Source: an uncultured Clostridia bacterium
GTDB taxonomy: Bacteria > Bacillota > Clostridia > Christensenellales > Aristaeellaceae
Direction: 5' to 3'
Assembly: GCA_946629635.1 (NCBI GenBank)
Contig: CAMOYA010000013.1
Span: 1-36,546, forward strand
Length of the DNA stretch: 36,546 nucleotides
Shown here: positions 10,307-36,304 of the stretch, one piece after another
Layout: the number at the start of each line of letters is the position of its first letter
How positions within the stretch are numbered: the stretch's first letter is position 1
The notes under the pieces: model-generated
Told to the model about the DNA's origin: nothing
Seen by the model: only the letters and a program-made list of their open reading frames with translations
Database searches by the model: none
Made by a program: the position numbers and the translations under genes

Positions 10307-10382
10307 CGGATATGCGTCTGCATTCCGCCCCTCAGAGCGAAGCTGCTTTGAGGGGCGCGCATATTTTGAGGAGGTATGCACC

Positions 10383-10979
10383 ATGACTCACCGCACAAAA
10401 CCGAAACTGCTGACCGTTGGCGTGATGACCCGGATCGCGCTGCTGACCGCAATGGCCTTCATTCTCTTCCTGATTCAGATTCCTGTCGTGGCTTTCTATA
10501 AGCTGGATCTGAGCAATTTGCCCGTGCTGCTGGGGACATTTTCCATGGGAACGGTGCCGGGGCTGATCATCCTGCTGCTGAAGGATCTGCTGGCGCTGCT
10601 TCGGACGACGTCCGCAGGCGTCGGCGATCTGGCGGATTTCATCATGAGCGCGGCACTGATCATTCCGGCGGGAATCATCTATCATCGGAACAAAACCCGG
10701 AAGAGCGCCATGATCGGCATGGCGGTCGGAACGGTCTGCATGGTGGTGACCGGCGTGCTGGTGAACAAATGGATCATGCTGCCTTTCTATATGGGCGCAT
10801 TCCATATGGATATGGAAGGAATCATTTCCTTTGCGAAGGTGGACGGGGTGGACAGCGAAACGAAGCTGCTGCTGCTGGTCACGGGCCCCTTCAATCTGCT
10901 CAAGGGCGCGGTGCTGAGCATCATCACGGGGCTGATCTACAAGCCGCTCAGCCCGCTGCTGCATCAGAAGATCAAGTGA
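10383..10979 (+). CDS. ribU: ECF transporter S component, riboflavin-specific
   Basis: The protein has 198 residues and is strongly hydrophobic, with about six membrane segments. It fits the RibU substrate-binding component of an energy-coupling factor transporter for riboflavin. LTAMAFILFLIQIPV, LDLSNLPVLLGTFSMGTVPGLIILLLKDLL and NKWIMLPFYM are typical of RibU. The energising EcfA/A'/T module is not in the window and is usually encoded elsewhere and shared (established). The ATG at 10383 follows GAGGAGGT by 7 bases. The FMN riboswitch upstream independently supports the substrate. rqcH follows after 18 bp without a terminator. Confidence 0.95.
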   Translation: MTHRTKPKLLTVGVMTRIALLTAMAFILFLIQIPVVAFYKLDLSNLPVLLGTFSMGTVPGLIILLLKDLLALLRTTSAGVGDLADFIMSAALIIPAGIIYHRNKTRKSAMIGMAVGTVCMVVTGVLVNKWIMLPFYMGAFHMDMEGIISFAKVDGVDSETKLLLLVTGPFNLLKGAVLSIITGLIYKPLSPLLHQKIK

Positions 10980-10997
10980 TAAAGGAGCGATAATCCG

Positions 10998-12740
10998 ATG
11001 CCCATGGATGGACTGACGGTCGGCTTTGCCGCCCGGGAGCTGGACCGGATGCTGAAGGGCGGCCGGGTGGACAGAGTGACCCAGCCGGAGCGGGATACGA
11101 TCCTGCTGACGGTTCGCGCGGAGAGTGAAAACCGGAAACTGCTCCTGTGCGCATCGCCGAATAATGCCCGGTGTCATCTGACCGGCGCCTCCTTTTCCAA
11201 TCCGCTCGAGCCGTCTGCACTGTGCATGCTCATGCGCAAGCAGCTGACCGGCGGCAGGATCCTTTCCGTTGCCCAGGTGGCGGGGGACCGGGTGGTTCAT
11301 GTGGATCTGGACACGGTGAACGAGCTGGGAGATCATGAAAAGCGGCGCCTCGTGCTTGAAATCATGGGCCGCCATTCCAATCTGATGCTGCTGGACGGGA
11401 ATGACCGGATTCTGGAGGCGACACGGCACGTGAATATGGAAATGAGCCGCGTGCGCCAGATTCAGCCTGGCATGACCTATCTGCCGCCACCTGCCCAGGA
11501 CAAGCTGAGCCCGGATGCGGTCACGCCGGAAGCACTGCTTGCCCGGCTTAAGGGAATGGAACCGGGCCGCTTCAGCCGTGCACTGGCGGATCATGTGACC
11601 GGCCTGAGCCGTACGGCGGCGGACGAGATTGCCATGCGGGTGCTGTCCCCCGGAGAGGAATGGCCGGAAAACCTGCCGGATGCCTGCCGGAGAACGGCGG
11701 AATTCCTGCGCCGTCTCCCGGAGATGGCGGATCCCCGCGTGCTTCGCAATGCGGAAGGCGGCGCGGAGGATGTGTTTGCTTTTCCGTATTTCAGCAGGGA
11801 TCCGGAGGCACAGCAGTCCTATTCGACGCTGAGCGAAGCGATCGATGCGTGCTACAGCGGCCGGGACATGCAGGAACGCCTCAGCCAGCGGAGCGCCGCC
11901 ATGGTGCGGACGCTGAAAACCCATGTGGAGCGTTGCGAAAAGAAACTCGCCATGCAGGAGGAGGAGCTGGCCTCCGCGGAACGCATGGAGGAATACCGGA
12001 TGATGGGCGAGGCGATCAATGCCAATCTGTACCAGCTGAAGAAGGGCATGACGGAGGCGCAGCTGCCGGACTGGTTCCACGGGGAAGACGGTGAAATCAC
12101 CGTTCCGCTGGATCCGCTGCTGACACCGAGCCAGAACGCCCAGAAATATTTCAAAAAGTATCAGAAGGCGCGCTCTGCCCGCGAAACGGCTGCCGTTCAG
12201 CGGGACAAAACGCTGGAGGAGCTGGATTACCTGGAAGGCATGCTGCTGGATGTGGACAAATGTACCGGGGAGAGCGAACTGGAGGAAATCCGTCAGGAGC
12301 TGACCCGGACCGGATACATGAAGCGGGTCACGAACCGGAAACAGCAGCGCCAGCTGCCCAGAAGCAATCCGTATAAGTACCTTTCCTCCGATGGAATTGA
12401 GATCCTGGTCGGGAAGAATGCCACCCAGAATGACCGGTTGACGCTGGGAGCCCGTCCGGATGAAATGTGGATGCATGCCAAGGACATGCCCGGCAGCCAT
12501 GTGATCATCCGCGCGGAAGGGGAGATCCCCCGGAAAACGCTGCAGGAGGCGGCGATGCTGGCTGCCTGGTACAGCAAGGGCCGATACAGCTCCACCGTGC
12601 CGATCGACTATACGCGGAAAAAATATGTGAAGAAGCCTTCCGGTGCCGCACCGGGCAAGATGATCTATACCCATCACAGGACCGCCTACATGACGGCGGA
12701 GGAGGAGATCATCCGGGGAATCCGGATCCTGGAAAAATGA
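10998..12740 (+). CDS. rqcH: Rqc2 homolog RqcH, ribosome-associated quality control factor
   Basis: The protein has 580 residues with the NFACT layout: NFACT-N at about 1-215, a central helical coiled-coil region at about 270-420 and NFACT-R at about 450-560. It binds stalled 50S-nascent chain complexes and adds C-terminal alanine tails for degradation (established for B. subtilis). Visible motifs are LVLEIMGRHSNLMLLD in NFACT-N, with Asp97-Arg98 (GDRVV), the same residue pair and numbering needed for Ala tailing in B. subtilis. NFACT-R has MWMHAKDMPGSHVII and ARYS-like WYSKGRYSSTVPIDYTRKKYVKKPSG. AAAGGAG lies 10 bp before the ATG. It sits in the same apparent transcription unit as ribU, which would put it under FMN riboswitch control. 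Confidence 0.94.
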   Translation: MPMDGLTVGFAARELDRMLKGGRVDRVTQPERDTILLTVRAESENRKLLLCASPNNARCHLTGASFSNPLEPSALCMLMRKQLTGGRILSVAQVAGDRVVHVDLDTVNELGDHEKRRLVLEIMGRHSNLMLLDGNDRILEATRHVNMEMSRVRQIQPGMTYLPPPAQDKLSPDAVTPEALLARLKGMEPGRFSRALADHVTGLSRTAADEIAMRVLSPGEEWPENLPDACRRTAEFLRRLPEMADPRVLRNAEGGAEDVFAFPYFSRDPEAQQSYSTLSEAIDACYSGRDMQERLSQRSAAMVRTLKTHVERCEKKLAMQEEELASAERMEEYRMMGEAINANLYQLKKGMTEAQLPDWFHGEDGEITVPLDPLLTPSQNAQKYFKKYQKARSARETAAVQRDKTLEELDYLEGMLLDVDKCTGESELEEIRQELTRTGYMKRVTNRKQQRQLPRSNPYKYLSSDGIEILVGKNATQNDRLTLGARPDEMWMHAKDMPGSHVIIRAEGEIPRKTLQEAAMLAAWYSKGRYSSTVPIDYTRKKYVKKPSGAAPGKMIYTHHRTAYMTAEEEIIRGIRILEK

Positions 12741-12787
12741 AAAGAACCGACCGGTGCAGAATGATGATGGCACCGGTCGGTTCTTTT
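12740..12787. terminator. Bidirectional terminator between rqcH and the xylanase operon
   Basis: An 18-bp perfect stem (AAAAGAACCGACCGGTGC and its complement) with a 12-base loop ends in TTCTTTT on the plus strand and TTCTTTTC on the minus strand. It starts at the rqcH stop codon and ends 10 bp from the xylanase stop. Confidence 0.92.
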
Positions 12788-14038: not shown

Positions 14039-15685
14039 TCAGTCTTCTTCAAAGGTACAACCGCCGATGAACTCCCGCAGCAGGGAAAGCGGCGGAATTT
14101 CATTCAGCAGGGCGGGATCCACATCCGGCAGATAGTTCAGGGTCTTGATCAGCCGGCGGGCAAGCAGGTAGTTCGGCGACTCCGGCGCAATCTCCTTCAG
14201 CAGTTCATAGGCAAAGAGCTTCAGGATCGGCAGCTCGTAATGCAGCGCGGTGTTGAACATGCTGTCCGCGTTCTCCTGATAGGCGAAAATATACTTTTCC
14301 TCGCCCCGTCGGACGCTGGGCCAGATGGCCAGGGTTTTCTCGGGCGCGTAAGCGCGGAACTGGTAATCCCGTACGATCCGGCGCAGCAGGCGGACGTCCG
14401 TCGTGCGGATCCGGTTGTGATCGTCCAGATTCAGGCAGGTCAGCGCGCTGACAAAGACGCGGTAGATTTCATCGGAGGGCAGGCTTTCGGATACCAGCGG
14501 GTTCAGGCCGTGGATACCTTCCAGGATGATGATTTCTCCGGGGGCGAGGGTGGTCGGGGGCGTGAGGTAATCCTTCTCGCCGGATTCGAAGTCATATCCG
14601 GGCATGAACACCTCTTCACCGTTGAGCAGCGCGGTGAGACTTTCGGAAAGCAGCTTGATATCGAGCGCTTCGATGGTTTCATAATCCTTCGTTCCGTCCA
14701 GCTGCATGGGTAGATCCGCACGGTTGATGAAAAAGTCATCCATGGAGATGCGCCGCGATTGATGGCCGTACATCTGCAGATGAACCGCCAGGCGGCCGGC
14801 AAAGGTGGTCTTGCCGCTGGAGGAAGGTCCGGCGACCAGCACGATATGCTTGTTCAGCTCATGTACCCGGCGGGCAATATTGTTGATCGCGGATTCGTGC
14901 AGCGCCTCGTTGACCCGGATAAAGTTCCGCAGCCTGTTTTCCTCGATCATCCGGGTGACATCCGTCACGTTGGTGACGCCGAGAATTTCACACCATTCCG
15001 CGCTCTGGCTGAATACCTCCAGGTGCTTCGGCCGGTAGACGTAGGGAGCCGCATGCTCGAAGTCCTTCCCGGCGGGCAGCTGGAGCACGAATCCGCCCCG
15101 CAGCTCGAAGAGCGTGAACACCGGGACATATCCGGTGGAAACGGTCATGGCGCCGTAGAAGTATTCCCACATCCCATCAATGGAATACATGTTGATATAG
15201 GGAACAGGACGGCGGCGGAGCAGCTCCACCTTGTCCGGCTGCTTTTCTTCCTCGAAATAGCGGATGGCGTCCTCCTTTGTCCACTGCTTCCGCTCGAAGG
15301 TCAGGTCCAGCTCCACAAGGCGGCGCATCTCGTTCTCCAGACGGACGATGTCCTGCCGGTGCAGCGTGATGCCGGGCAGGCGAACGAACACGCCGTATCC
15401 GACGGAATATTCAATCCGAACCTGCTGATAGGGGTACAGATGGCGCAGCGCCAGCAGCATGACGAAGCGAAGAGAGCGCTCGTATACCCTGCGCCCTTCC
15501 TCGTGCTCCAGCGTCAGGGGCTCCAGGGAGCAGTCCCGCCGGAGCGGCTCATTCAACTCGCGCACCACGCCGCCGGACAGCGCGGCCAGCGTGCCGTGCG
15601 GAAAAGCGTTCAGCGCCTTCAGAGCGGCCTGAACCGTGGTTCCTTCCGGGAATTCTTTTTGACTGTTATTGGACTGGATGATCAT
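14039..15685 (-). CDS. Nucleoside (uridine-type) kinase with N-terminal TGS/ThrRS-like domain
   Basis: The protein has 548 residues. The N-terminal 65 residues resemble a TGS domain (EFPEGTTVQAALKALN). The next 200 or so resemble the threonyl-tRNA synthetase second domain (HGEE-type motifs are degraded). The C-terminal half, from about residue 280, is a phosphoribulokinase/uridine kinase P-loop domain with VAGPSSSGKTTFAGRL as Walker A and ISMDDFFINR and DYETIEALDIKLL as substrate-site motifs. Such proteins are widespread in Clostridia and Thermotogae and are annotated as nucleoside kinases. The exact nucleoside is unknown to me. I chose the ATG at 15685, 9 bp after AAGGAGG; two earlier in-frame starts lack spacing. 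It lies 22 bp after the exonuclease gene. Confidence 0.85.
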   Translation of the reverse strand: MIIQSNNSQKEFPEGTTVQAALKALNAFPHGTLAALSGGVVRELNEPLRRDCSLEPLTLEHEEGRRVYERSLRFVMLLALRHLYPYQQVRIEYSVGYGVFVRLPGITLHRQDIVRLENEMRRLVELDLTFERKQWTKEDAIRYFEEEKQPDKVELLRRRPVPYINMYSIDGMWEYFYGAMTVSTGYVPVFTLFELRGGFVLQLPAGKDFEHAAPYVYRPKHLEVFSQSAEWCEILGVTNVTDVTRMIEENRLRNFIRVNEALHESAINNIARRVHELNKHIVLVAGPSSSGKTTFAGRLAVHLQMYGHQSRRISMDDFFINRADLPMQLDGTKDYETIEALDIKLLSESLTALLNGEEVFMPGYDFESGEKDYLTPPTTLAPGEIIILEGIHGLNPLVSESLPSDEIYRVFVSALTCLNLDDHNRIRTTDVRLLRRIVRDYQFRAYAPEKTLAIWPSVRRGEEKYIFAYQENADSMFNTALHYELPILKLFAYELLKEIAPESPNYLLARRLIKTLNYLPDVDPALLNEIPPLSLLREFIGGCTFEED

Positions 15686-15707
15686 TCGGGGCATCCTCCT
15701 TCGGCGA

Positions 15708-16709
15708 TTAATCGAAGGGCATGCTGGCGATATCGGCATTCAGCAGCTCTTCATCCGGATCGGGAAGGGCGCCGTGTTCTTCCAGATAGCGGGCGGCGCG
15801 CTCGCGCATCTGGAGCTGTTTGGTATGCACGTAGGCGACGTTTGCGCTGGTCGCAGGGGCGGTGGTTCGGCTCATAACCTTCTTTCCGTCATCATCGATC
15901 CGGAAACGGAGACGGATCAGAATCCTGCCGTGATTTTTGCACTTGGCAACTGCGAGATACCTGTCGGCGCTCTGTTTAATATATTCGCCGTCCAGGGCCA
16001 GAACCCTTCCGCAACGCGGGCAAACAGGATGAATTGCCGTTTCACTTTCCAGCGCGTCGCGGACTGAGTCAAAGGCTTCGCCCGGAGTCTTTTCCCGGGC
16101 ATTCCGCCTGGCATGGATCAGCTGACGGGGCTTCTGCGGATAATTCAGCACAGCATCTGGATCCGGGAGCATCTTGAACACCAGCGCGGTATACCAGGCA
16201 TCGTTCATGGCATTGTGGAAAGCCATGGACTCATCGGGCTGGATGTTCAGCGCCTCCATGGCGCTTTTCAGGCTGGCACGGTCCTTCATCCTGTGCAGAT
16301 CGCTGTACAGGCGTTGAATATCGCACAGGGGCGCGAGCGGAATGTCCTCACAATGGAAAAAGCTGATGTTCTGATAGAGAACGCTGATATCGTCACATCC
16401 CCAGGTGAGCAGGGTATAATCCTCGCCGCACCACTCGGCAAAACGGGTCAGCGCTTCCCGGAAGGCCGGAGCGCCGGCCAGGGTTTCGGAATCCAGTCCG
16501 GTCATCCGCCGGATTCGGGGATGAATCTTCAGATAATGGGTTGGCGCGATCGGTATCGAAATGGCTTCGGCCGGGTTCAGGTCTGCATCCAGCCGGACGG
16601 CGCCGATCTGAATCATCTCAAAGATGAGCCTGTCACCCACCTCGCGATAGGTGCGGCTCTGATAGGAAATGGGCTGGTTCCATTCAAGGTCCAGAATGAT
16701 ATAGGTCAT
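15708..16709 (-). CDS. DEDDh 3'-5' exonuclease with C-terminal zinc ribbon
   Basis: The protein has 333 residues. It opens with the ExoI motif of the RNase T/DnaQ superfamily (IILDLEWNQP; D7 and E9). TWGCDDISVLYQN gives ExoII, and AFHNAMNDAWYTALVF supplies the His and Asp of a DEDDh ExoIII. It resembles KapD-type exonucleases of Bacillota. After the nuclease domain, CPRC (about residue 231) and KCKNH (about 255) look like a Cys3His zinc ribbon, which I do not recall as standard for this group. The substrate (RNA or DNA) cannot be read from sequence. Its start overlaps the end of the FAD oxidoreductase gene by 4 bp, so the two are translationally coupled. Confidence 0.87.
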   Translation of the reverse strand: MTYIILDLEWNQPISYQSRTYREVGDRLIFEMIQIGAVRLDADLNPAEAISIPIAPTHYLKIHPRIRRMTGLDSETLAGAPAFREALTRFAEWCGEDYTLLTWGCDDISVLYQNISFFHCEDIPLAPLCDIQRLYSDLHRMKDRASLKSAMEALNIQPDESMAFHNAMNDAWYTALVFKMLPDPDAVLNYPQKPRQLIHARRNAREKTPGEAFDSVRDALESETAIHPVCPRCGRVLALDGEYIKQSADRYLAVAKCKNHGRILIRLRFRIDDDGKKVMSRTTAPATSANVAYVHTKQLQMRERAARYLEEHGALPDPDEELLNADIASMPFD

Positions 16710-25374: not shown

Positions 25375-25414
25375 TGTTATGAAGCATTGAGTTCTTTCGG
25401 GGGTGCAGGGAGAG

Positions 25415-26731
25415 ATGAGCGGGAGAAGGAATACCGCCGCAGCCAGCCATCGGATGAAGGGATGGGTCTGGGCAGCGATCATTGTGGCTGGCCTGATCTG
25501 GGCTTATTTTGCCGTTTTTTACGATGCGGATGTGTTGGAAATTCGGGACGGGAAAGCAGTTGGCACAAAGCCCACATGGCTGATCGGTCATTTCCGGGAG
25601 GGCGGCGGAGACGAGCGGTATTATAAGCTGGCGGATGTCGGTGCCCCGAAAGGATATTCGGAGAACCGGGAAGCAACAGATCCGGACGAAGATCCGGTGA
25701 CCACGTTCTTTGCCTTCTCCGGCAAGGATCCGGACAAGGATCCTGGAAGCATCCTGATTCAGCCGTTGGCCATGCCGATGGAAACGGCTGCCAGGGAAGC
25801 AGGAGCCTCCGTCGGAGGGGCGGATGAAGCGTGCGCGGGCTGCTGGGTGCTGAAGGAAAACGCAGACGAAGAGAAGAAAATGACGCTGTTCCTGCCTTCC
25901 CCTTATGAGGCTGCCTGCATCCGGCTGGAAGTGACGATGCCGGTGGAGACGGAGGACGCGGACATGGCAGCGCTGGCCGCGGCGGCATCAGGAAAAATCG
26001 TTCCGGGAAAGAAAATGTCCGCCATGGCAGCGGACTTCAAGCTGAACTTTCTGGATGACAACCGCTGGACATACCTGACGAACGGTCTGCTGGTAACCCT
26101 GGAGATCACGCTGGGTGCAGTGCTGCTGGGCATCGTCCTGGGCGTGATCGTGGCGACGGTGCGCTCCACATGGGAGCAGAACAATGAGAACATGCACCGG
26201 GGGTTCGGCCGGGGAGCGCTGTCCTTTGCCAACGAGGTGTGCGGCGTGTATCTGACCGTGATCCGGGGCACGCCGGTGGTGATCCAGCTGATGATCATGT
26301 ATTATATCATTTTCGCCTCTTCCCGGAACGGCGTGGCCATTGCGGTTCTCGCCTTCGGCATCAACTCGGGGGCGTATGTGGCGGAGATCATCCGCGGCGG
26401 GATCATGTCCATTGACCGGGGACAGCTGGAGGCAGGCCGCAGCCTGGGGTTCAACTATGTTCAGACGATGCGCCACATCATCATTCCCCAGGCGATGAAG
26501 AATGTGCTGCCGGCGCTGGCCAACGAGTTTATCGTTCTGCTGAAGGAAACATCCGTTTCCGGCTACGTGGCAGTGAGGGACCTGACCAAGGGCGGAGACA
26601 TCATCCGCGGAGTCACTTATTCAGCCTTCATGCCGTTGCTGGCGGTGGCAGCAATTTATCTGGTCATGGTGATGTTCTTCACCTATCTGGTCAGCCGGCT
26701 GGAAAGGAGGCTGCGTGCAAGTGACCACTGA
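25415..26731 (+). CDS. Amino acid ABC transporter permease with large extracytoplasmic N-terminal domain
   Basis: The protein has about 438 residues, roughly twice the usual length of HisM/GlnP-type permeases. Residues 1-16 are cytoplasmic, one helix follows ([22 protein letters not shown]), and about 170 residues of mixed, acidic sequence probably lie outside the membrane. The permease core then begins at about residue 215 ([24 protein letters not shown]). The EAA loop is clear: [35 protein letters not shown]. The extra domain contains ACAGCW and EAACIRLE cysteines and is not a recognisable SBP_bac_3 domain, unlike GlnP fusions. I do not recognise its family. The ATG at 25415 has only AGGGAG very close by; a GTG at 25403 is an alternative. 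Confidence 0.9.
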
Positions 26732-27508: not shown

Positions 27509-30187
27509 TTATGTCAGCAGGGAGCCGATCCATTCCGCGGACAGCTCCTGCATCGGTCTGAAATCGTCGGAAACGAGATAATCATAGAGAACACCCAGCA
27601 GGCATCGGGCCTCCGGGAACTGCTGAAGCTGCTGCAGCCCCAGGGAGGAGGCCAGCAGCCTGCCGCCCTCGCATCGGCATTCCAGCAATTTGGCCATGGG
27701 CCGCAGATAGGCATAGGAATCCATTTCGGTGATGATGGCATCGGCCTTTTCCGGCAGCAGGAACGCCCTCTGGCGGGAAATCCGGGCCCATTGCCAGTTG
27801 CTGAATGATTCCGTGGGAAAGTGCCGGAACAGCGGGTGATCGTCATCGATCAGCTGTCCCATGGTGCCCGTCTGGGTCGGAAAGGTGCACACGGACCAGA
27901 AGTCAGGGCTGAAATGGCAGGGCAGGGAGCGCGGCATCGCTTCCTCCGTGCTGTCGGGGGAGAGATAGACCGTGCCCCCGCGGCGCAGATGAGCGACAGC
28001 CGCCTCGTCCAGCCTCCGGCATTCATGGACGGATGCGGGACAGGCGGGGAGTCGGTTCGGATAAACCCAGAGGGGATATTCATTACGATTTCCGCAGAAG
28101 GATACGGTCAGGGTCAGCTTTTCCGCCTCTTCCGGAGCCGGAAGGGAAACTGTCAGCATGCCGGCTTCCCGCAGGCCTCCTGCATGAGCGGAGACGAAGC
28201 CGGCCGTGCCGCCGGAAATGGCGTACCCGCCCCGGGACAGCGTCCATTCCACCGGGCCGTGAAGATCCGTTTTGCCCCAGTGGGCGATCAGAACGGGGGC
28301 AGCCAGGGAATCCCCGGCGGTGAACGTGAATCCGGGAAGCTTCAGCAGCGGCAACGTGTCCCGGAAGAACGCGCGGAACCGTGCGGGATCCGCGAATGCA
28401 TAGGGCTTGGGTGCCAGATGGGCGTTCATCATGCCCACCAGGGCGGTACCCTGGCCGGGGAAATCCTGCAGCCCCAGCAGCGAAATACCGCTGTATCCTT
28501 CGGTCCGAAGAGCGGCTTCCACCTCCGCCCGGTAGCACAGCAGGCTGCTTTCACCCGTGGCTTCCACCATGCGGTGCCAGATGGGTTCCAGCCCTTTTTC
28601 CGCGACCTTCCGGCGGATGTGCTTCAGGTTTTCGGGAGAGGTGATCCCCTGATACATGCGGATCTCATCAAAGTCCGGCAGCACTTCAAACTGTCCGACC
28701 TCAAAGGAGAAGACGGGATGGCTGCCCGCTGCGCGGATGGCGTGAACAGCCTCGGTATAGTCATGCCGGGTATCCGGGGTGCCCTGATTGAGCCATCCCC
28801 TCATGTCGGCATACGCGGCGCGCAGATCCAGATCGAAAAAGTTGGTGGACGTATAGAAATCGCTGGAAGGGTCGGAACCGACAGCGCCGTAATGGACGTT
28901 TGAACCGTTCGCGTACAGGCGCGTCGGATCGAAGCGCTTCGCTTCCTTCAGCAGGCTGTCCATGAACCGATGTCCCGCCTCATCTGCCTGCAGCTCGTTG
29001 CCGAATGTGAGCATGACGAAGGACGGATGGTTGGAAAGATGCCGGAGGATGGCCAGCAACTCGGTCCGGTAATAGGACCGGGCTTCCTCCGTTGCGAAGG
29101 CATGCTCCGGATCCCAGTGGCTGAGCTCAGGCTGCATCAGCATGCCCATTTCATCCGCGGCGAGGAAAGCGGCATCCGGCGGGCAGTGGCTGTGAAACCG
29201 GAGGCAATTGACCCCATAGTCCCGGTACTTTTGCAGGATGCAGCGCCATGCATCCGGATCCGTTGGGATGTATCCTGTTTCCGGGAACACGGCACAGTTG
29301 GCTTCGCTGCGCAGGAAGATCCGCCTTCCGTTCAGCGCCAGATGCCCGTCTGCGGCGGAAAATTCCCGGATGCCGAAGAAAACAGAGCACTGCTCCAGCG
29401 CTTCGCCGGAAACGGACAGGCGGTGCAGAATGCCTTCTTCCAGATCCCATTTTTCCGCGGCGGGATTCAGCGCGAGCCCGGAAAAAACGATTTCCTTTCT
29501 TCCCGGGGACAGTCGCACGGGGAGAGAAGCCTCCTCTGTCAGCGCGTCGCTGCGTACGGTCAGGCTTCCGCTCCAGGGAATCGCTGCGTCCATCTCAACG
29601 ATGACGTCCAGTTTCCCTGCCATTGGGTATACCCGTACACCGCTGATGAAAACGGGGCTTTCGGCACGGAGACGGATGAAGCCCAGCAGCCCGTTCCAGT
29701 TCGTCTGGGTTTCATCGGATGCGGCGGAGGAATAGACGATGGCGTTCCGCGGCCAGGAAGGGTAGCTGTTGTCTGAGATGAACTCCAGCGTATCGTTTCC
29801 GGAAAGAAACCCGGTCAACTCAAACGTATACGGTGCGGACAGGCAACCGGGGAGAGCTGGGTCCACTTCCTGCCCGTTGACGGTCAGCCGGAGGTGCCTG
29901 GCGCGCTCCACGTCCAGAAAGATCCGCTTCTCTTCCGGCACTGTCCACTCCAGCGTCCGGGAGATTCGCGCCGGGCCCTCATAGGTGTACTTCCGGGTCA
30001 GCCGGGTGACGATGGGATCGCCTTCGTGCCAGAAGCCGATCCGCCGGACTTCGTCCGCCTTCCACTGACGGGCGGGATCGTCCGGGTCACCGATACCGCT
30101 TTCGTCCAACGTTCCGGGCAGGCGGAGCGGAGCGCTCCGGCCTGGTATTTCACAGTTCCAGATTCCGGAAAGATTGAGAATCTCCAT
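27509..30187 (-). CDS. Glycoside hydrolase family 2 protein
   Basis: The protein has 892 residues with no signal peptide, so it acts on imported oligosaccharides. An N-terminal galactose-binding-like jelly-roll (LSGIWNCEIPG, then RTLEWTVPEEKRIFLDVERARHLRLTVNGQEV) and an immunoglobulin-like sandwich precede the TIM barrel. The likely acid/base Glu is in MLTFGNELQ (about residue 397) and the nucleophile in FSFEVGQFE (about 495). The last 250 residues are further beta-rich modules. GH2 covers beta-galactosidase, beta-mannosidase and beta-glucuronidase activities, and sequence alone does not tell which applies here. AGGAGG lies 6 bp before the ATG at 30187. A terminator separates it from the sucrose operon, and no strong promoter is visible ahead of it. 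Confidence 0.88.
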   Translation of the reverse strand: MEILNLSGIWNCEIPGRSAPLRLPGTLDESGIGDPDDPARQWKADEVRRIGFWHEGDPIVTRLTRKYTYEGPARISRTLEWTVPEEKRIFLDVERARHLRLTVNGQEVDPALPGCLSAPYTFELTGFLSGNDTLEFISDNSYPSWPRNAIVYSSAASDETQTNWNGLLGFIRLRAESPVFISGVRVYPMAGKLDVIVEMDAAIPWSGSLTVRSDALTEEASLPVRLSPGRKEIVFSGLALNPAAEKWDLEEGILHRLSVSGEALEQCSVFFGIREFSAADGHLALNGRRIFLRSEANCAVFPETGYIPTDPDAWRCILQKYRDYGVNCLRFHSHCPPDAAFLAADEMGMLMQPELSHWDPEHAFATEEARSYYRTELLAILRHLSNHPSFVMLTFGNELQADEAGHRFMDSLLKEAKRFDPTRLYANGSNVHYGAVGSDPSSDFYTSTNFFDLDLRAAYADMRGWLNQGTPDTRHDYTEAVHAIRAAGSHPVFSFEVGQFEVLPDFDEIRMYQGITSPENLKHIRRKVAEKGLEPIWHRMVEATGESSLLCYRAEVEAALRTEGYSGISLLGLQDFPGQGTALVGMMNAHLAPKPYAFADPARFRAFFRDTLPLLKLPGFTFTAGDSLAAPVLIAHWGKTDLHGPVEWTLSRGGYAISGGTAGFVSAHAGGLREAGMLTVSLPAPEEAEKLTLTVSFCGNRNEYPLWVYPNRLPACPASVHECRRLDEAAVAHLRRGGTVYLSPDSTEEAMPRSLPCHFSPDFWSVCTFPTQTGTMGQLIDDDHPLFRHFPTESFSNWQWARISRQRAFLLPEKADAIITEMDSYAYLRPMAKLLECRCEGGRLLASSLGLQQLQQFPEARCLLGVLYDYLVSDDFRPMQELSAEWIGSLLT

Positions 30188-30236
30188 GGCGGTCCTCCTG
30201 ATTTCGGGTGCGGATAAAAAGGAAAGTCCATGATGA

Positions 30237-30278
30237 ACAAAACCCGGTCCGGTTCCGTCAGGAAATCCGGACCGGGTT
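30237..30278 (-). terminator. Terminator after the GH13_18 gene
   Basis: On the minus strand AACCCGGTCCGG pairs with CCGGACCGGGTT (12 bp perfect, 14-base loop), followed by TTTTG. It starts 14 bp after the stop codon of the sucrose phosphorylase-like gene. Confidence 0.87.
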
Positions 30279-30291
30279 GAACACGGATGCA

Positions 30292-31791
30292 TTATGGCGT
30301 CAGCCGGATCTGATACTCCTGCGTTTTCAGATCGGCATGCAGCTCGGCTTCATTCGGGCCATTCTTCCATTTGATCAGAAGGGTATGCGCCTCCGGCTGC
30401 TGCGCTTCCATCTCCGAATCGAAGCCGAAGGCAGGATGCCGGTTGCGGATCCGCAGCAGCTCCAGCTGCTTGCGGACGATGGGCCAGGCGAGCCGCTCCG
30501 CAATGTCGTTTTCCGTCAGGTTTGTCCGGTTGATCTCCTTGTGCCCGCCTTCGCCGCTGCGAGCGACAGCCTCCAGGTCGTTCCGGCCCGCAAACAGGTC
30601 CAGGTACCAGATCTGTGGCTTTCCGGGCATGAACATCTGGATGGCGCGGGCAAGAAGCATCTTCTTTTCGTCGCATCCCAGTGCACTGAAATAGGTGGCG
30701 TTGACCTGGTAATACATGTTTTTCGCACCGTGCAGGTTCTTGATCAGCCCACCCCGGCGAACGATCAGATCGATCAGCTGCTGGATCCTGTCATCCGGAA
30801 CCAGTCCCTTCAGATCCAGCATCGGAATGCCGTCGTGACAGCCCAGCATGTTCACACTGCGGATGCCCAGCTCCTTCTGCTCCCTGGCCCAGCGGAGCAG
30901 GAACCCGGCATCCCGGTTTTCGATTGCGTCAATCAGAAGCCCTGGCAGGAAAAAGTCATAGGTCATATATCCTTTTTCCGTCAGCGTCCGATAGCTTTGC
31001 TCCGCGTAGGCCGCGTGAATCTCCGGCAGCAGCGTCAGCCCACGCTGATCCGCCAGCTGACGGATGCGTTCCAGAATGTCCCACGTTTCCGGCTCGTTCA
31101 TGAAGTTGCGCCGTCCGGGAATTTTGGACGCGTATCCAAATGCGTCCAGCCGTACGATGGAAGCGCCATATCCGGCCAGCCGATCCAGGGTGTCTTCATA
31201 GAATGCCCAAACCAGGGGAGAAGCGATGTTCACATCCATCTGGCCGAGATAGCTGCGCTTTCCCGTGACCGGATCCGTGTTCACCTCCTGATAGAAGGTG
31301 TTCCAGTAGGGAACCTCGCGCCCGTCCGGGAATGAAACCATCAGCAGGGGCAGACCGCTCTTCCGGAAGAACATTTCCCGGATATATTCGGCATCCGGCT
31401 GGATATACCCGGCCTCCGTCATGCTGCCCTTTCCCTGCCAGAAGCGGTTCCAGTCGATAAAGAAATCCCGGTAGGGAGATGCTTCGCCCCGTGCAATCAT
31501 GTCCTGAAACTGGGGCGACTGGACGGAAAGGTGATTCAGGATGAAATCAAGCTTCAGATCCAGCCCGAGCCTTTTCAGCCTTTCCAGATCTTCAGCCCTC
31601 GCCAGCTCCGGGTTCAGTTCATAGCTGATGACCGAAAAGCCACGGTCCAGGTCGGTGGTGAAGACGCTGGGCAAAATATAGAAAGACCGAAAGGCGTCTT
31701 TCATTTCCGGACGCTCCAGCAATGCGGCGATTTCTGACATCGTGCCGCCCAGGCTGTCCGGATAGGCGTTGAGCATTGCTCCGTCGTTCAT
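30292..31791 (-). CDS. GH13_18 sucrose (or sucrose 6F-phosphate) phosphorylase
   Basis: The protein has 499 residues, the usual family size, and is cytoplasmic. It splits sucrose, or its 6-phosphate, with inorganic phosphate to glucose 1-phosphate and fructose or fructose 6-phosphate. The catalytic nucleophile is D216 (IVRLDAFGYA), the acid/base E257 (LLPEIHAAY) and the third acid D320 (LGCHDGIPM). The retained YQVNATYFSALGC and GKPQIWYLDLFAGRND blocks set it apart from amylases. An insertion WNTFYQEVNTDPVTGKRSYLGQMD is typical of the clostridial branch (from memory). Preference for free or phosphorylated sucrose cannot be read directly; the neighbouring kinase favours the phosphate form. It is the last gene of the operon, 13 bp after the kinase. 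Confidence 0.88.
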   Translation of the reverse strand: MNDGAMLNAYPDSLGGTMSEIAALLERPEMKDAFRSFYILPSVFTTDLDRGFSVISYELNPELARAEDLERLKRLGLDLKLDFILNHLSVQSPQFQDMIARGEASPYRDFFIDWNRFWQGKGSMTEAGYIQPDAEYIREMFFRKSGLPLLMVSFPDGREVPYWNTFYQEVNTDPVTGKRSYLGQMDVNIASPLVWAFYEDTLDRLAGYGASIVRLDAFGYASKIPGRRNFMNEPETWDILERIRQLADQRGLTLLPEIHAAYAEQSYRTLTEKGYMTYDFFLPGLLIDAIENRDAGFLLRWAREQKELGIRSVNMLGCHDGIPMLDLKGLVPDDRIQQLIDLIVRRGGLIKNLHGAKNMYYQVNATYFSALGCDEKKMLLARAIQMFMPGKPQIWYLDLFAGRNDLEAVARSGEGGHKEINRTNLTENDIAERLAWPIVRKQLELLRIRNRHPAFGFDSEMEAQQPEAHTLLIKWKNGPNEAELHADLKTQEYQIRLTP

Positions 31792-31804: not shown

Positions 31805-32728
31805 TCAGCATTCCGCCATCCGGCGGCGGTAATCCACGTAGGTCATCAGCTCGCCCTGCTTGCTGAGAATGATCCTGGCTTTGGCTGCCTGCGATTCCAG
31901 CTTTTTCTGTTCGATCTCCAGCACCATGGTGGTGAAAGCACTGTCAGTCTTTCCGTCCCGGTTCCGGGCGCGCCGGTGGGCGAGGGTTTCGGCGGGGGTG
32001 GAGTTCAGAAGCACGGGGATGTCCACCCCTTCCAGCCAGTCGCTGTTCCCGTGCGTCCATTCCAGAATGAGCACTCGCGTGGAGGAGAAATCCACCCTGT
32101 CATACCACAGTTCCGTGGTTTCCCGCCCCATGCGCTTGAGATGGATCGCGCCCGTGCCCTGATGGAAAAGGGCCAGAATCCGGGACACTTCGTCAAAATC
32201 CGTTTCCCGGGGTGTGCCCAGATAGGCGGTCAGCATCCGCCGCCCCGACTGCTGATAGAAACCAAGCCAGGGCTCGGCGGCCAGGGCCGGATCGGCATCC
32301 GTATCCGCTTCCCAGAGCGCACGGAGCCGTGTGCTCCGCTCCGGGGTCAGCAGATCCCGGGCCACGAGCCCCTGCAGACCGCCCTGGCGGAATACGCGGA
32401 CCCGCTCCAGATCATTGTCCCGCGGGATCCGACGGGGGTAATTGTCCCCGCTCATAATATAGGTGCCAATCCCTTGCTGATTCAGATACCATGCCAGCAC
32501 GGAGGCGATCTCGCTCTTGCCGACGCCGCTGCCGCCGCACACGGCGACCACGGTCTTTTCCGGCATGGAGCCGGGAGTGGATGAAAGCTGTTTCATCTCC
32601 TCCAGCAGACGGGGGAAGATGGCCTGTGCCTTTCGGATGTGTTCTTCTCCGATACAGATCCGATCTCCGGGCATATCCCCCTGGGGGATTTCCGCGGGCA
32701 CAGGCGGAAAGCTGAACGGCTGAGTCAT
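31805..32728 (-). CDS. P-loop sugar kinase, candidate stand-alone sucrose kinase
   Basis: The protein has 307 residues. Walker A is CGGSGVGKSEIAS (residues 64-76). It is followed by MSGDNYPRRIPRDNDLERVRVF, which resembles the substrate region of phosphoribulokinase/uridine kinase enzymes. KRMGRETTELWYDRVDF, LILEWTHGNSDWLEGVDIPVLL and HRRARNRDGKTDSAFTTMVLEIEQ are strongly patterned blocks. From memory these resemble the sucrose kinase half of the bifunctional alpha-galactosidase/sucrose kinase AgaSK of Ruminococcus gnavus. The setting between GH32 and GH13_18 sucrose enzymes fits that role, but it is an inference. A uridine-kinase-like enzyme acting on another sugar is the alternative. AAGGAGG lies 9 bp before the ATG. 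Confidence 0.8.
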   Translation of the reverse strand: MTQPFSFPPVPAEIPQGDMPGDRICIGEEHIRKAQAIFPRLLEEMKQLSSTPGSMPEKTVVAVCGGSGVGKSEIASVLAWYLNQQGIGTYIMSGDNYPRRIPRDNDLERVRVFRQGGLQGLVARDLLTPERSTRLRALWEADTDADPALAAEPWLGFYQQSGRRMLTAYLGTPRETDFDEVSRILALFHQGTGAIHLKRMGRETTELWYDRVDFSSTRVLILEWTHGNSDWLEGVDIPVLLNSTPAETLAHRRARNRDGKTDSAFTTMVLEIEQKKLESQAAKARIILSKQGELMTYVDYRRRMAEC

Positions 32729-35267: not shown

Positions 35268-36254
35268 TTATCCTTTGGTTGTCCCGCCGAACTGGTAATG
35301 AACCGGCAGGCAGATCAGGGAAGGAACGCTGGAAAAGTGCTTGGACAGGATCGTGCTGACGCAGGCTTCCGCGATTTCCTGCGTCGGCTGAACGATGCTG
35401 GAAACGATGGGCTCCTGGTCGCCGAACATCCGGATGCCGTCAAAACCGATGACCTGAACATCTTCCGGAACACGAACGCCCAGTTCGCGCAGGTGCCGGA
35501 TGACCTTCCAGGCCAGAGAATCCGTTCCGATGAAAAGGCCGTCGAAATCGAACCGGCCATCTTCAAGGTGTGAACGAATGAAATCATCGATTTCGGAAAA
35601 AGGATGGCCGTCTTCCAGCATCAGCGTTTCAAAAGGAAGACCGAGCTCCACACATGCGCTGATAAAGCCTTCCTTCCGCTTGCTGGGTTCGTTGGTCAGG
35701 GTGGATGCGACCCGCATGAAGGCGACGCGGGTGGCGCCCAGTTCTTTCAGCTTATGGGCGGCGAGCCAGCCGCCTCCGAAATTGTCGGAAGCGACGCAGG
35801 GCACGGAAGATGAAAAGAAACGGTCAATTGTAACAAAGGGCACATCCGGCGGAATCGTCAGATCCGGGTTGTAGGTCAGCGCGATGATGCCGTCCACCAG
35901 ATTCTGGCGGGCCATCTGAATAAACTCTGCTTCCCGGCTCGTGTTATACTCGGTGAAGCACAGCATCATCTTGCAGTCTCTTTTTTCCAGCGCCATATTG
36001 ATGTGGTGTACCAACAGCGCGAAATAAGGATTGATCGTGTTGGGAATGATCACGGCGATGGTATTGGTTTTACCTGTCCGAAGCGTACGCCCGCCGCTGT
36101 TGTACTGATACCCGAGGCGCGCGATCGCTTCTTCGACGCGGACCCTGAATGCTTCGCCCACCTGCTGACCGTTAATGACGCGGGAAACGGTGCCCAGAGC
36201 AACACCGGCCTCCCGCGCAACATCCGCCATTGTAGGTGCATTCTTCTCTTTCAA
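35268..36254 (-). CDS. LacI-family transcriptional regulator of sucrose use
   Basis: The protein has 328 residues. The helix-turn-helix and hinge are APTMADVAREAGVALGTVSRVINGQ, and the rest is a periplasmic-binding-like sensor domain (NTIAVIIPNTINPYFALLVHHI; DVQVIGFDGIRMFGD). It most likely represses the sucrose operon and the divergent gene, with release by sucrose or a derivative (inference). I chose TTG at 36254 because AAGGAG lies exactly 8 bp upstream. The in-frame ATG at 36275 has no ribosome binding site and sits inside a repeated operator-like motif. The first gene of its operon, it probably controls itself. Confidence 0.92.
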   Translation of the reverse strand: MKEKNAPTMADVAREAGVALGTVSRVINGQQVGEAFRVRVEEAIARLGYQYNSGGRTLRTGKTNTIAVIIPNTINPYFALLVHHINMALEKRDCKMMLCFTEYNTSREAEFIQMARQNLVDGIIALTYNPDLTIPPDVPFVTIDRFFSSSVPCVASDNFGGGWLAAHKLKELGATRVAFMRVASTLTNEPSKRKEGFISACVELGLPFETLMLEDGHPFSEIDDFIRSHLEDGRFDFDGLFIGTDSLAWKVIRHLRELGVRVPEDVQVIGFDGIRMFGDQEPIVSSIVQPTQEIAEACVSTILSKHFSSVPSLICLPVHYQFGGTTKG

Positions 36255-36274
36255 CCAATCAGCTCCTTTTTTCA

Positions 36275-36304
36275 TTTCATGAAATTATGATATCATTTTC
36301 ATGA
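36275..36304. promoter_or_regulatory. Repeated TTTCATGA motif in the LacI promoter region
   Basis: TTTCATGA occurs at 36275-36282 (within the palindrome TTTCATGAAA) and again at 36297-36304, 22 bp apart, on either side of the -10 box of the regulator gene. It shares TTCATGA with the operator at 36423-36442, which suggests autorepression. Confidence 0.45.

Follow-up and report, generated by a model that had tools for sequence, protein, structure and literature searches.

The window analysed here is the whole of contig CAMOYA010000013.1 (36,546 nucleotides) from the assembly of an uncultured Clostridia bacterium (GCA_946629635.1; genome G000 in our numbering, in which L denotes a locus). It carries on its minus strand a gene for a predicted stand-alone sucrose kinase (SK), followed by a gene of glycoside hydrolase (GH) subfamily GH13_18 whose product is predicted to be a strict sucrose 6F-phosphate phosphorylase (SPP). 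SK and strict-type SPP constitute a genomic unit, and it is probable that the two enzymes act in sequence. Sucrose would enter the cell unphosphorylated, SK would use ATP to place a phosphate onto C6 of the fructose half, and SPP, with phosphate as co-substrate, would split the sucrose 6F-phosphate into glucose 1-phosphate and fructose 6-phosphate. SK would then open a unit of two enzymes, in which the GH13_18 start codon lies 13 bases after SK; at the cost of one ATP, both products would reach glycolysis in phosphorylated form.

The unit was observed in a collection of 129 SK loci besides the window, searched with the window's own sequences and representing 119 distinct SK sequences (14 relatives of the window, a named set comprising the best 80 of 228 confirmed relatives, 8 loci of a class sample and 27 of a family sample). 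A strict-type SPP gene (more than 45% identity to the window SPP) lies downstream on the same strand at 118 of the 129, with a median gap of 24 bases; the gap is at most 100 bases in 99 of these 118 and 884 bases at its longest. Fusions included, a strict-type SPP adjoins SK or is joined to it in 127 of the 128 loci that are not cut by a contig end. The remaining loci are L088, which stops at a contig edge, and L036, which adjoins another type of GH13_18. Since relatives 52-76% identical to the window SK share this context in many genomes (one remote row, L036, stands at 29%), the arrangement goes beyond chance. Matches weaker than 1e-12 were left out of the class sample; of its 13 strong genomes besides G000, eight were viewed wide and five (L126, L129-L132) over 1.5-kb flanks, within which SPP is adjacent in all five. 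Among 18 matching genomes (G000 included), G047, G108 and G032 were not counted because of short or weak matches, and locus L037 of G047 was accordingly left out of the SK count; L017 of G108 looks by eye like another P-loop ATPase. Two SK-SPP loci (L038, L039) are found on different contigs of a single metagenome-assembled genome (MAG), Clostridia RGIG4437, and the unit can thus occur twice per genome.

Presence and absence follow the same pattern. In family f58, which appears to be the Lachnospiraceae since it includes a Pseudobutyrivibrio kinase (L158 equals L084), SK (E<=1e-12) was found in 30 of 397 genomes, and a GH13_18 at least 54% identical to the window SPP (E limit 1e-20) in the very same 30. 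Another 23 genomes contain a GH13_18 of at most 40% identity only, and SK is found in none of them. These counts, for which the best 3 to 5 candidates per genome were scored, ignore relatedness. In G695 and G737 the SPP is in pieces.

The partner enzyme is the second line of evidence. The window GH13_18 has its best PDB match in IcSPP (6S9U), a strict sucrose 6F-phosphate phosphorylase, at 597 bits, the next one scoring 278. Loop A of the window enzyme reads KNMYYQ (residues 357-362) and fits the KXXYYQ motif that marks strict SPPs (PMC7178133). On the 6S9U alignment, R143, K351, Y361, Q362 and K418 are the equivalents of Arg152, Lys364, Tyr377, Gln378 and Lys434, the roles of which have been described, that of Gln378 from docking only (PMC6720575). 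Loop and phosphate-binding residues together place the protein in the strict SPP clade and agree with the initial annotation, in which a preference for sucrose 6F-phosphate, given as known for a related gut GH13_18 enzyme, was conditionally extended to this neighbour. Its score against the NCBIfam sucrose phosphorylase equivalog (322.7 bits) falls just under the cut-off of 334.4. For RgSPP and IcSPP, cleavage of sucrose 6F-phosphate to glucose 1-phosphate and fructose 6-phosphate has been demonstrated, as has their inactivity on sucrose (PMC6521584, PMC6720575).

The same residues recur across the loci. Loop A could be read in 122 of 129 aligned SPPs, the window included, and 118 of these fit K..YYQ; the exceptions are L056, L218 and L194, in which YYQ is kept and K is replaced by R or Q, and L036, with EGGFHQ. 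The binding quartet was readable in 121, being of the IcSPP type (R-K-Y-K) in 120 and R-S-H-R in L036. Many SK-linked SPPs are about 546-573 residues long (e.g. L028:10556-12241), compared with 499 in the window; their genome-search match to the window SPP is interrupted around residues 165-175, suggesting that they carry an insert there which the window SPP and the AgaSK-linked SPPs do not have. L036 encodes a 217-residue remote kinase; the adjoining GH13_18, of 30% identity, carries the residues of TtSPP. A general linkage of such kinases with TtSPP-type enzymes was considered and set aside, L036 being a single case: no GH13_18 match was found in the stretches examined around its relatives in L253 (41%) and Gemmatirosa L252 (36%), and at E 1e-12 a relative of this type occurred in 1 of 398 genomes of the phylum and in none of 8 genomes of the family besides L036 itself. 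Next to the kinase and GH13_18, L036 and L110 share genes for a DUF3502 binding protein, an ATP-binding cassette (ABC) permease and a GDSL lipase, although the two loci differ in kinase and phosphorylase type.

In 9 of the 129 loci (8 distinct), SK and SPP form a single polypeptide. Such fusions are found on three actinobacterial MAG contigs (L073, 891 residues; L108 and L109, 864 residues) and in four f58 genomes (L155, 789; L195, 800; L196, 815; L194, 834), and one more (L111/L197) runs off the contig end. In a quick tree with 120 rows, at least five changes of the SPP-fusion label are required, three of them forced by well-supported branches, whereas the fusion to GH36 is one clade; long branches leave the exact number of fusions unsure. 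A kinase-GH32 fusion was not seen among the SK loci, and no SK-SPP fusion was found in the open-access literature searched. In genome G768 (L198:5699-7846, minus strand) SK begins at residue 428 and forms the C-terminal part of a 716-residue open reading frame (ORF), labelled stand-alone on the tree, that matches the serine beta-lactamase family (PF00144, 155 bits) over residues 38-391; this is either a third fusion partner of SK or a frame accident. The initial annotation had singled out the kinase as a free-standing form of a domain known mainly from fusions. As a rarity or a novelty this does not hold: the stand-alone form is the commonest one (109 of the 120 tree rows, the sample being weighted towards relatives of the window), and for Clostridium sp. 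L2-50 a kinase gene of its own has already been published (PMC7688924). It is the SK-SPP unit and its fusions that are worth following.

A further question is where the sucrose 6F-phosphate comes from. The sucrose operon of the window had been proposed to operate without a phosphotransferase system (PTS), and this is borne out by its own genome: PTS enzyme I (PF05524) was not found in the G000 assembly (2.07 Mb, 87% complete), and by this mark the operon is not PTS-fed. PF02896 occurs in G000 only in an 898-residue frame, which by its size would be pyruvate phosphate dikinase. Of 55 SK-bearing genomes tested (including G132, of the remote type), 37 contain enzyme I, which was not found in the other 18. 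In nine of the latter, completeness reaches 90% or more (G052, G058, G087, G337, G414, G464, G395, G019 and G031), G337 being a single contig and 100% complete, and SPP stands beside SK in all nine. Since these nine lack enzyme I and SPP is not expected to use sucrose, the kinase is their only evident source of sucrose 6F-phosphate. Transport beside the SK units is not uniform: ABC-transporter genes adjoin them in L155, L193, L110, L036 and L251, a permease of the major facilitator superfamily lies near the L108 fusion, and L089 has a PTS permease in its vicinity. In G000 the binding-protein family PF01547 is matched 22 times, with 21 of these matches above the cut-off.

The window SK itself very likely phosphorylates sucrose at the expense of ATP, to judge from its sequence. 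The ORF begins with ATG, is preceded by a GGAGG ribosome-binding site and lies between GH32 and GH13_18 genes on the strand and at the position first described. Its P-loop, GGSGVGKS, occupies residues 65-72, and the block EWTHGNSDWLEGVDIPVLL residues 223-241, including EWTH at 223-226. Residues 65-72, D95, E223-H226, R252, R255 and R257 are invariant in all 40 aligned SK rows; the fold suggests catalytic roles for them. The proposed likeness to the kinase half of AgaSK was examined on L193, which nearly duplicates the AgaSK locus of R. gnavus and whose kinase domain we take as AgaSK type because its GH36 half matches crystallised AgaSK (2YFN) over 720/720 residues (1638 bits). Homology is evident (40% identity over 235 columns, E 5e-57), with about 45 extra residues in the window SK, and places it in the SK family with an intact P-loop and the putative kinase residues. 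It is not a bifunctional AgaSK: the ORF has 307 residues and there is no GH36 within the window run, an intact GH36 being found elsewhere in G000. The fold is that of phosphoribulokinase, uridine kinase and pantothenate kinase. PF00485 (phosphoribulokinase/uridine kinase) gave no match to the window SK in the Pfam search at E 0.001, and the remote relative L036 matches it at 33.6 bits (cut-off 22).

Which hydroxyl receives the phosphate is the point of conflict. The isolated AgaSK kinase domain (RgSK) is active on sucrose and ATP-dependent, with a Km of 1.0 mM and a kcat of 2.4 per s (PMC7688924). The scheme in which an AgaSK-type kinase works ahead of SPP, as first suggested, stands as to homology and strict-type residues but cannot be derived from the literature: AgaSK is published as phosphorylating C6 of glucose (PMC7688924), whereas strict SPPs were shown to need it on fructose. 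This conflict, which goes unmentioned in the initial annotation, is the point of interest. Because the phosphate bound by strict SPPs is that on fructose, SK should be a sucrose 6F-kinase, and sucrose 6F-phosphate is its likely product. That the product of the kinase is the substrate of the phosphorylase is indicated by co-occurrence, adjacency, fusion, residue sets and the lack of enzyme I taken together. This evidence is wider than the relation drawn in the R. gnavus papers, where SPP activity was related to kinase genes in four syntenic gut loci and the components were considered able to work independently (PMC6521584, PMC7688924). Several points weigh against a 6F-product. Besides the AgaSK assignment itself, made on a product named S6P after mass spectrometry (PMC7688924), which may have left the position of the phosphate open, the RgSPP substrate table does not include sucrose 6G-phosphate (PMC6521584). 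Because the SK loci share ancestry and were found with the window's sequences, the counts do not represent independent events; in the 37 genomes with enzyme I, SPP could be fed by a PTS. At 40% identity and with its extra residues, the window SK could differ from AgaSK in substrate, and the ScrB-family GH32 and fructokinase of the window run would suit a 6G-product as well.

This last point leads to an alternative that we consider unlikely, namely that SK makes sucrose 6G-phosphate as published for AgaSK, that GH32 converts this to glucose 6-phosphate and fructose, the latter being taken by the fructokinase, and that SPP is fed by a separate supply of sucrose 6F-phosphate. In favour of it, the window GH32 scores 365.5 bits against TIGR01322, the sucrose-6-phosphate hydrolase family (cut-off 356.4; PF00251, 317 bits), and stands with a pfkB-family kinase that matches fructokinase PRK09434 at 201 bits (below its cut-off of 450). 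A similar set is found in L193 (L193:2-2430), where a GH32 (46%) and a fructokinase (45%) precede the AgaSK-type gene by about 4.5 kb, and in L089. Yet, the window apart, these two are the only loci with a GH32 in the examined flanks (2 of 129, against 127 of 128 for strict-type SPP), and a fructokinase relative was found in three (L029, L089 and L193); as the flanks range from less than 1 to about 10 kb, these counts are lower bounds. Moreover, fused forms combine the kinase with SPP, no case with GH32 having been observed, and in the 18 genomes without enzyme I nothing other than the kinase is an evident source of sucrose 6F-phosphate. Since it is so rarely near SK, GH32 seems to provide a second, local route for free sucrose or fructosides instead of belonging to the SK-SPP unit, although it may hydrolyse a 6G-phosphate. 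The parallel hydrolytic route of the initial annotation is thus present as genes, GH32 and a pfkB-family kinase, but as a rare companion; in the window lineage it would be added to the sucrose 6F-phosphate pathway for sucrose or other fructosides.

An improbable alternative is that SK acts on fructose, a fructosyl-oligosaccharide, raffinose or both primary hydroxyls, and that its pairing with SPP has another reason. Kinases listed by structure for this fold (pantothenate, uridine, glycerate and phosphoribulokinases) do take many small hydroxyl substrates, and the extra segment of the window SK is absent from AgaSK. Against this, the characterised relative takes sucrose (PMC7688924), the assayed SPPs of the clade need sucrose 6F-phosphate (PMC6720575, PMC6521584), the run already has a pfkB-family kinase, and the fusions of SK, to GH36 on one side and to SPP on the other, place sucrose between them as the common intermediate. 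That SK is a salvage kinase (a uridine-kinase-like nucleoside kinase or an adenylylsulfate kinase) in the operon by chance is highly improbable, and these identities were rejected. In their favour, the fold is shared with uridine kinases, and adenylylsulfate kinase is the only family matched in Pfam or NCBIfam. Against them, this match is below threshold (PF01583, 20.6 bits, cut-off 21.1) and confined to the P-loop region (residues 59-100), and the SPP pairing extends over 119 distinct SK sequences plus the fusions.

SK belongs to a co-directional run from 36275 to 27509, in the order LacI regulator, probable fructokinase, GH32, SK, SPP and GH2, which can be regarded as one run because the successive gaps are 3, 49, 30, 13 and -1 bases; GGAGG-type ribosome-binding sites precede GH32 and GH13_18 as well as SK.

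Features of the SK run in the window, in order of transcription
Feature	Position	Strand	Basis
LacI-family regulator, first in run	35268..36275	-	family searches
pfkB-family sugar kinase, probably fructokinase, 327 aa	34281..35264	-	PF00294; best NCBIfam PRK09434
GH32 sucrose / sucrose-6-phosphate hydrolase (ScrB family), 490 aa	32759..34231	-	PF00251, TIGR01322
Stand-alone sucrose kinase (SK), predicted	31805..32728	-	307 aa, P-loop kinase ORF
GH13_18 phosphorylase, predicted strict SPP, 499 aa	30292..31791	-	PDB 6S9U match, residue set
GH2-type beta-galactosidase-like protein, last in run	27509..30292	-	NF049890 461 bits, cut-off 1500

The contig stops 271 bases upstream of the LacI regulator, so that a transporter may lie just outside. 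The GH2-type protein that closes the run gave no match in the Pfam search and probably starts at 30187, where GGAGG precedes an ATG, instead of 30292; it resembles the exo-beta-1,4-galactosidase BT4151 (461 bits, below the cut-off). Elsewhere in the window, an ABC permease (25403-26731, plus strand) has PF00528 in residues 276-438 and a long N-terminal part that is free of matches; by eye, the ORFs on either side resemble a binding protein and an ATPase of the amino-acid-transporter type. A second protein of the phosphoribulokinase/uridine kinase family (14039-15739, minus strand; PF00485, 54 bits, residues 300-496 of 566) is distant from the SK run. An 813-residue ORF with a GTG start (10332-12773, minus strand) gave no Pfam match at 1e-6.

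Taken together, co-occurrence, adjacency, fusion and the absence of enzyme I from several near-complete genomes argue for a single pathway, which makes the regiochemistry reported for AgaSK directly testable. It would also give a name to a kinase that has no curated Pfam or NCBIfam family above the cut-off, and could help to explain PTS-free sucrose use in some Clostridia. A 2020 review attributed the sucrose 6F-phosphate for strict SPPs to the PTS or to a currently unknown source (PMC7178133). We lean, with less confidence than for the window pathway, towards a broader interpretation, in which the whole SK family would be sucrose 6F-kinases of a PTS-independent pathway in Clostridia and Actinobacteria, SK and SPP would have been fused several times, and the glucose-C6 assignment of AgaSK would be wrong or incomplete; the unknown source would then be solved.

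With the phosphoribulokinase/uridine kinase/bacterial pantothenate kinase superfamily SK shares 12-14% identity in two structural alignments, differing in that it has no Pfam match above the cut-off. Both genes of the ScrB-type route, GH32 and a fructokinase, are present in the window run. The usual ScrB route takes sucrose 6G-phosphate made by the PTS, unlike the situation in G000, where enzyme I was not found in the assembly. The partner enzyme shares with RgSPP and IcSPP (GH13_18, EC 2.4.1.329) the KXXYYQ loop, the five residue equivalents and the catalytic Asp/Glu/Asp; its likeness rests on sequence, whereas those two were assayed. The Clostridium sp. L2-50 kinase (WP_008399817.1), compared by its description, is likewise a free-standing gene in a locus with SPP, but stands with a separate GH36 gene (PMC7688924). 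Finally, AgaSK of Ruminococcus gnavus E1 has a homologous P-loop kinase domain with a strict-type SPP gene after it, as in the window, but that domain is fused to a GH36 alpha-galactosidase, is about 45 residues shorter and has a reported product phosphorylated at glucose C6, whereas the window SK is free-standing.
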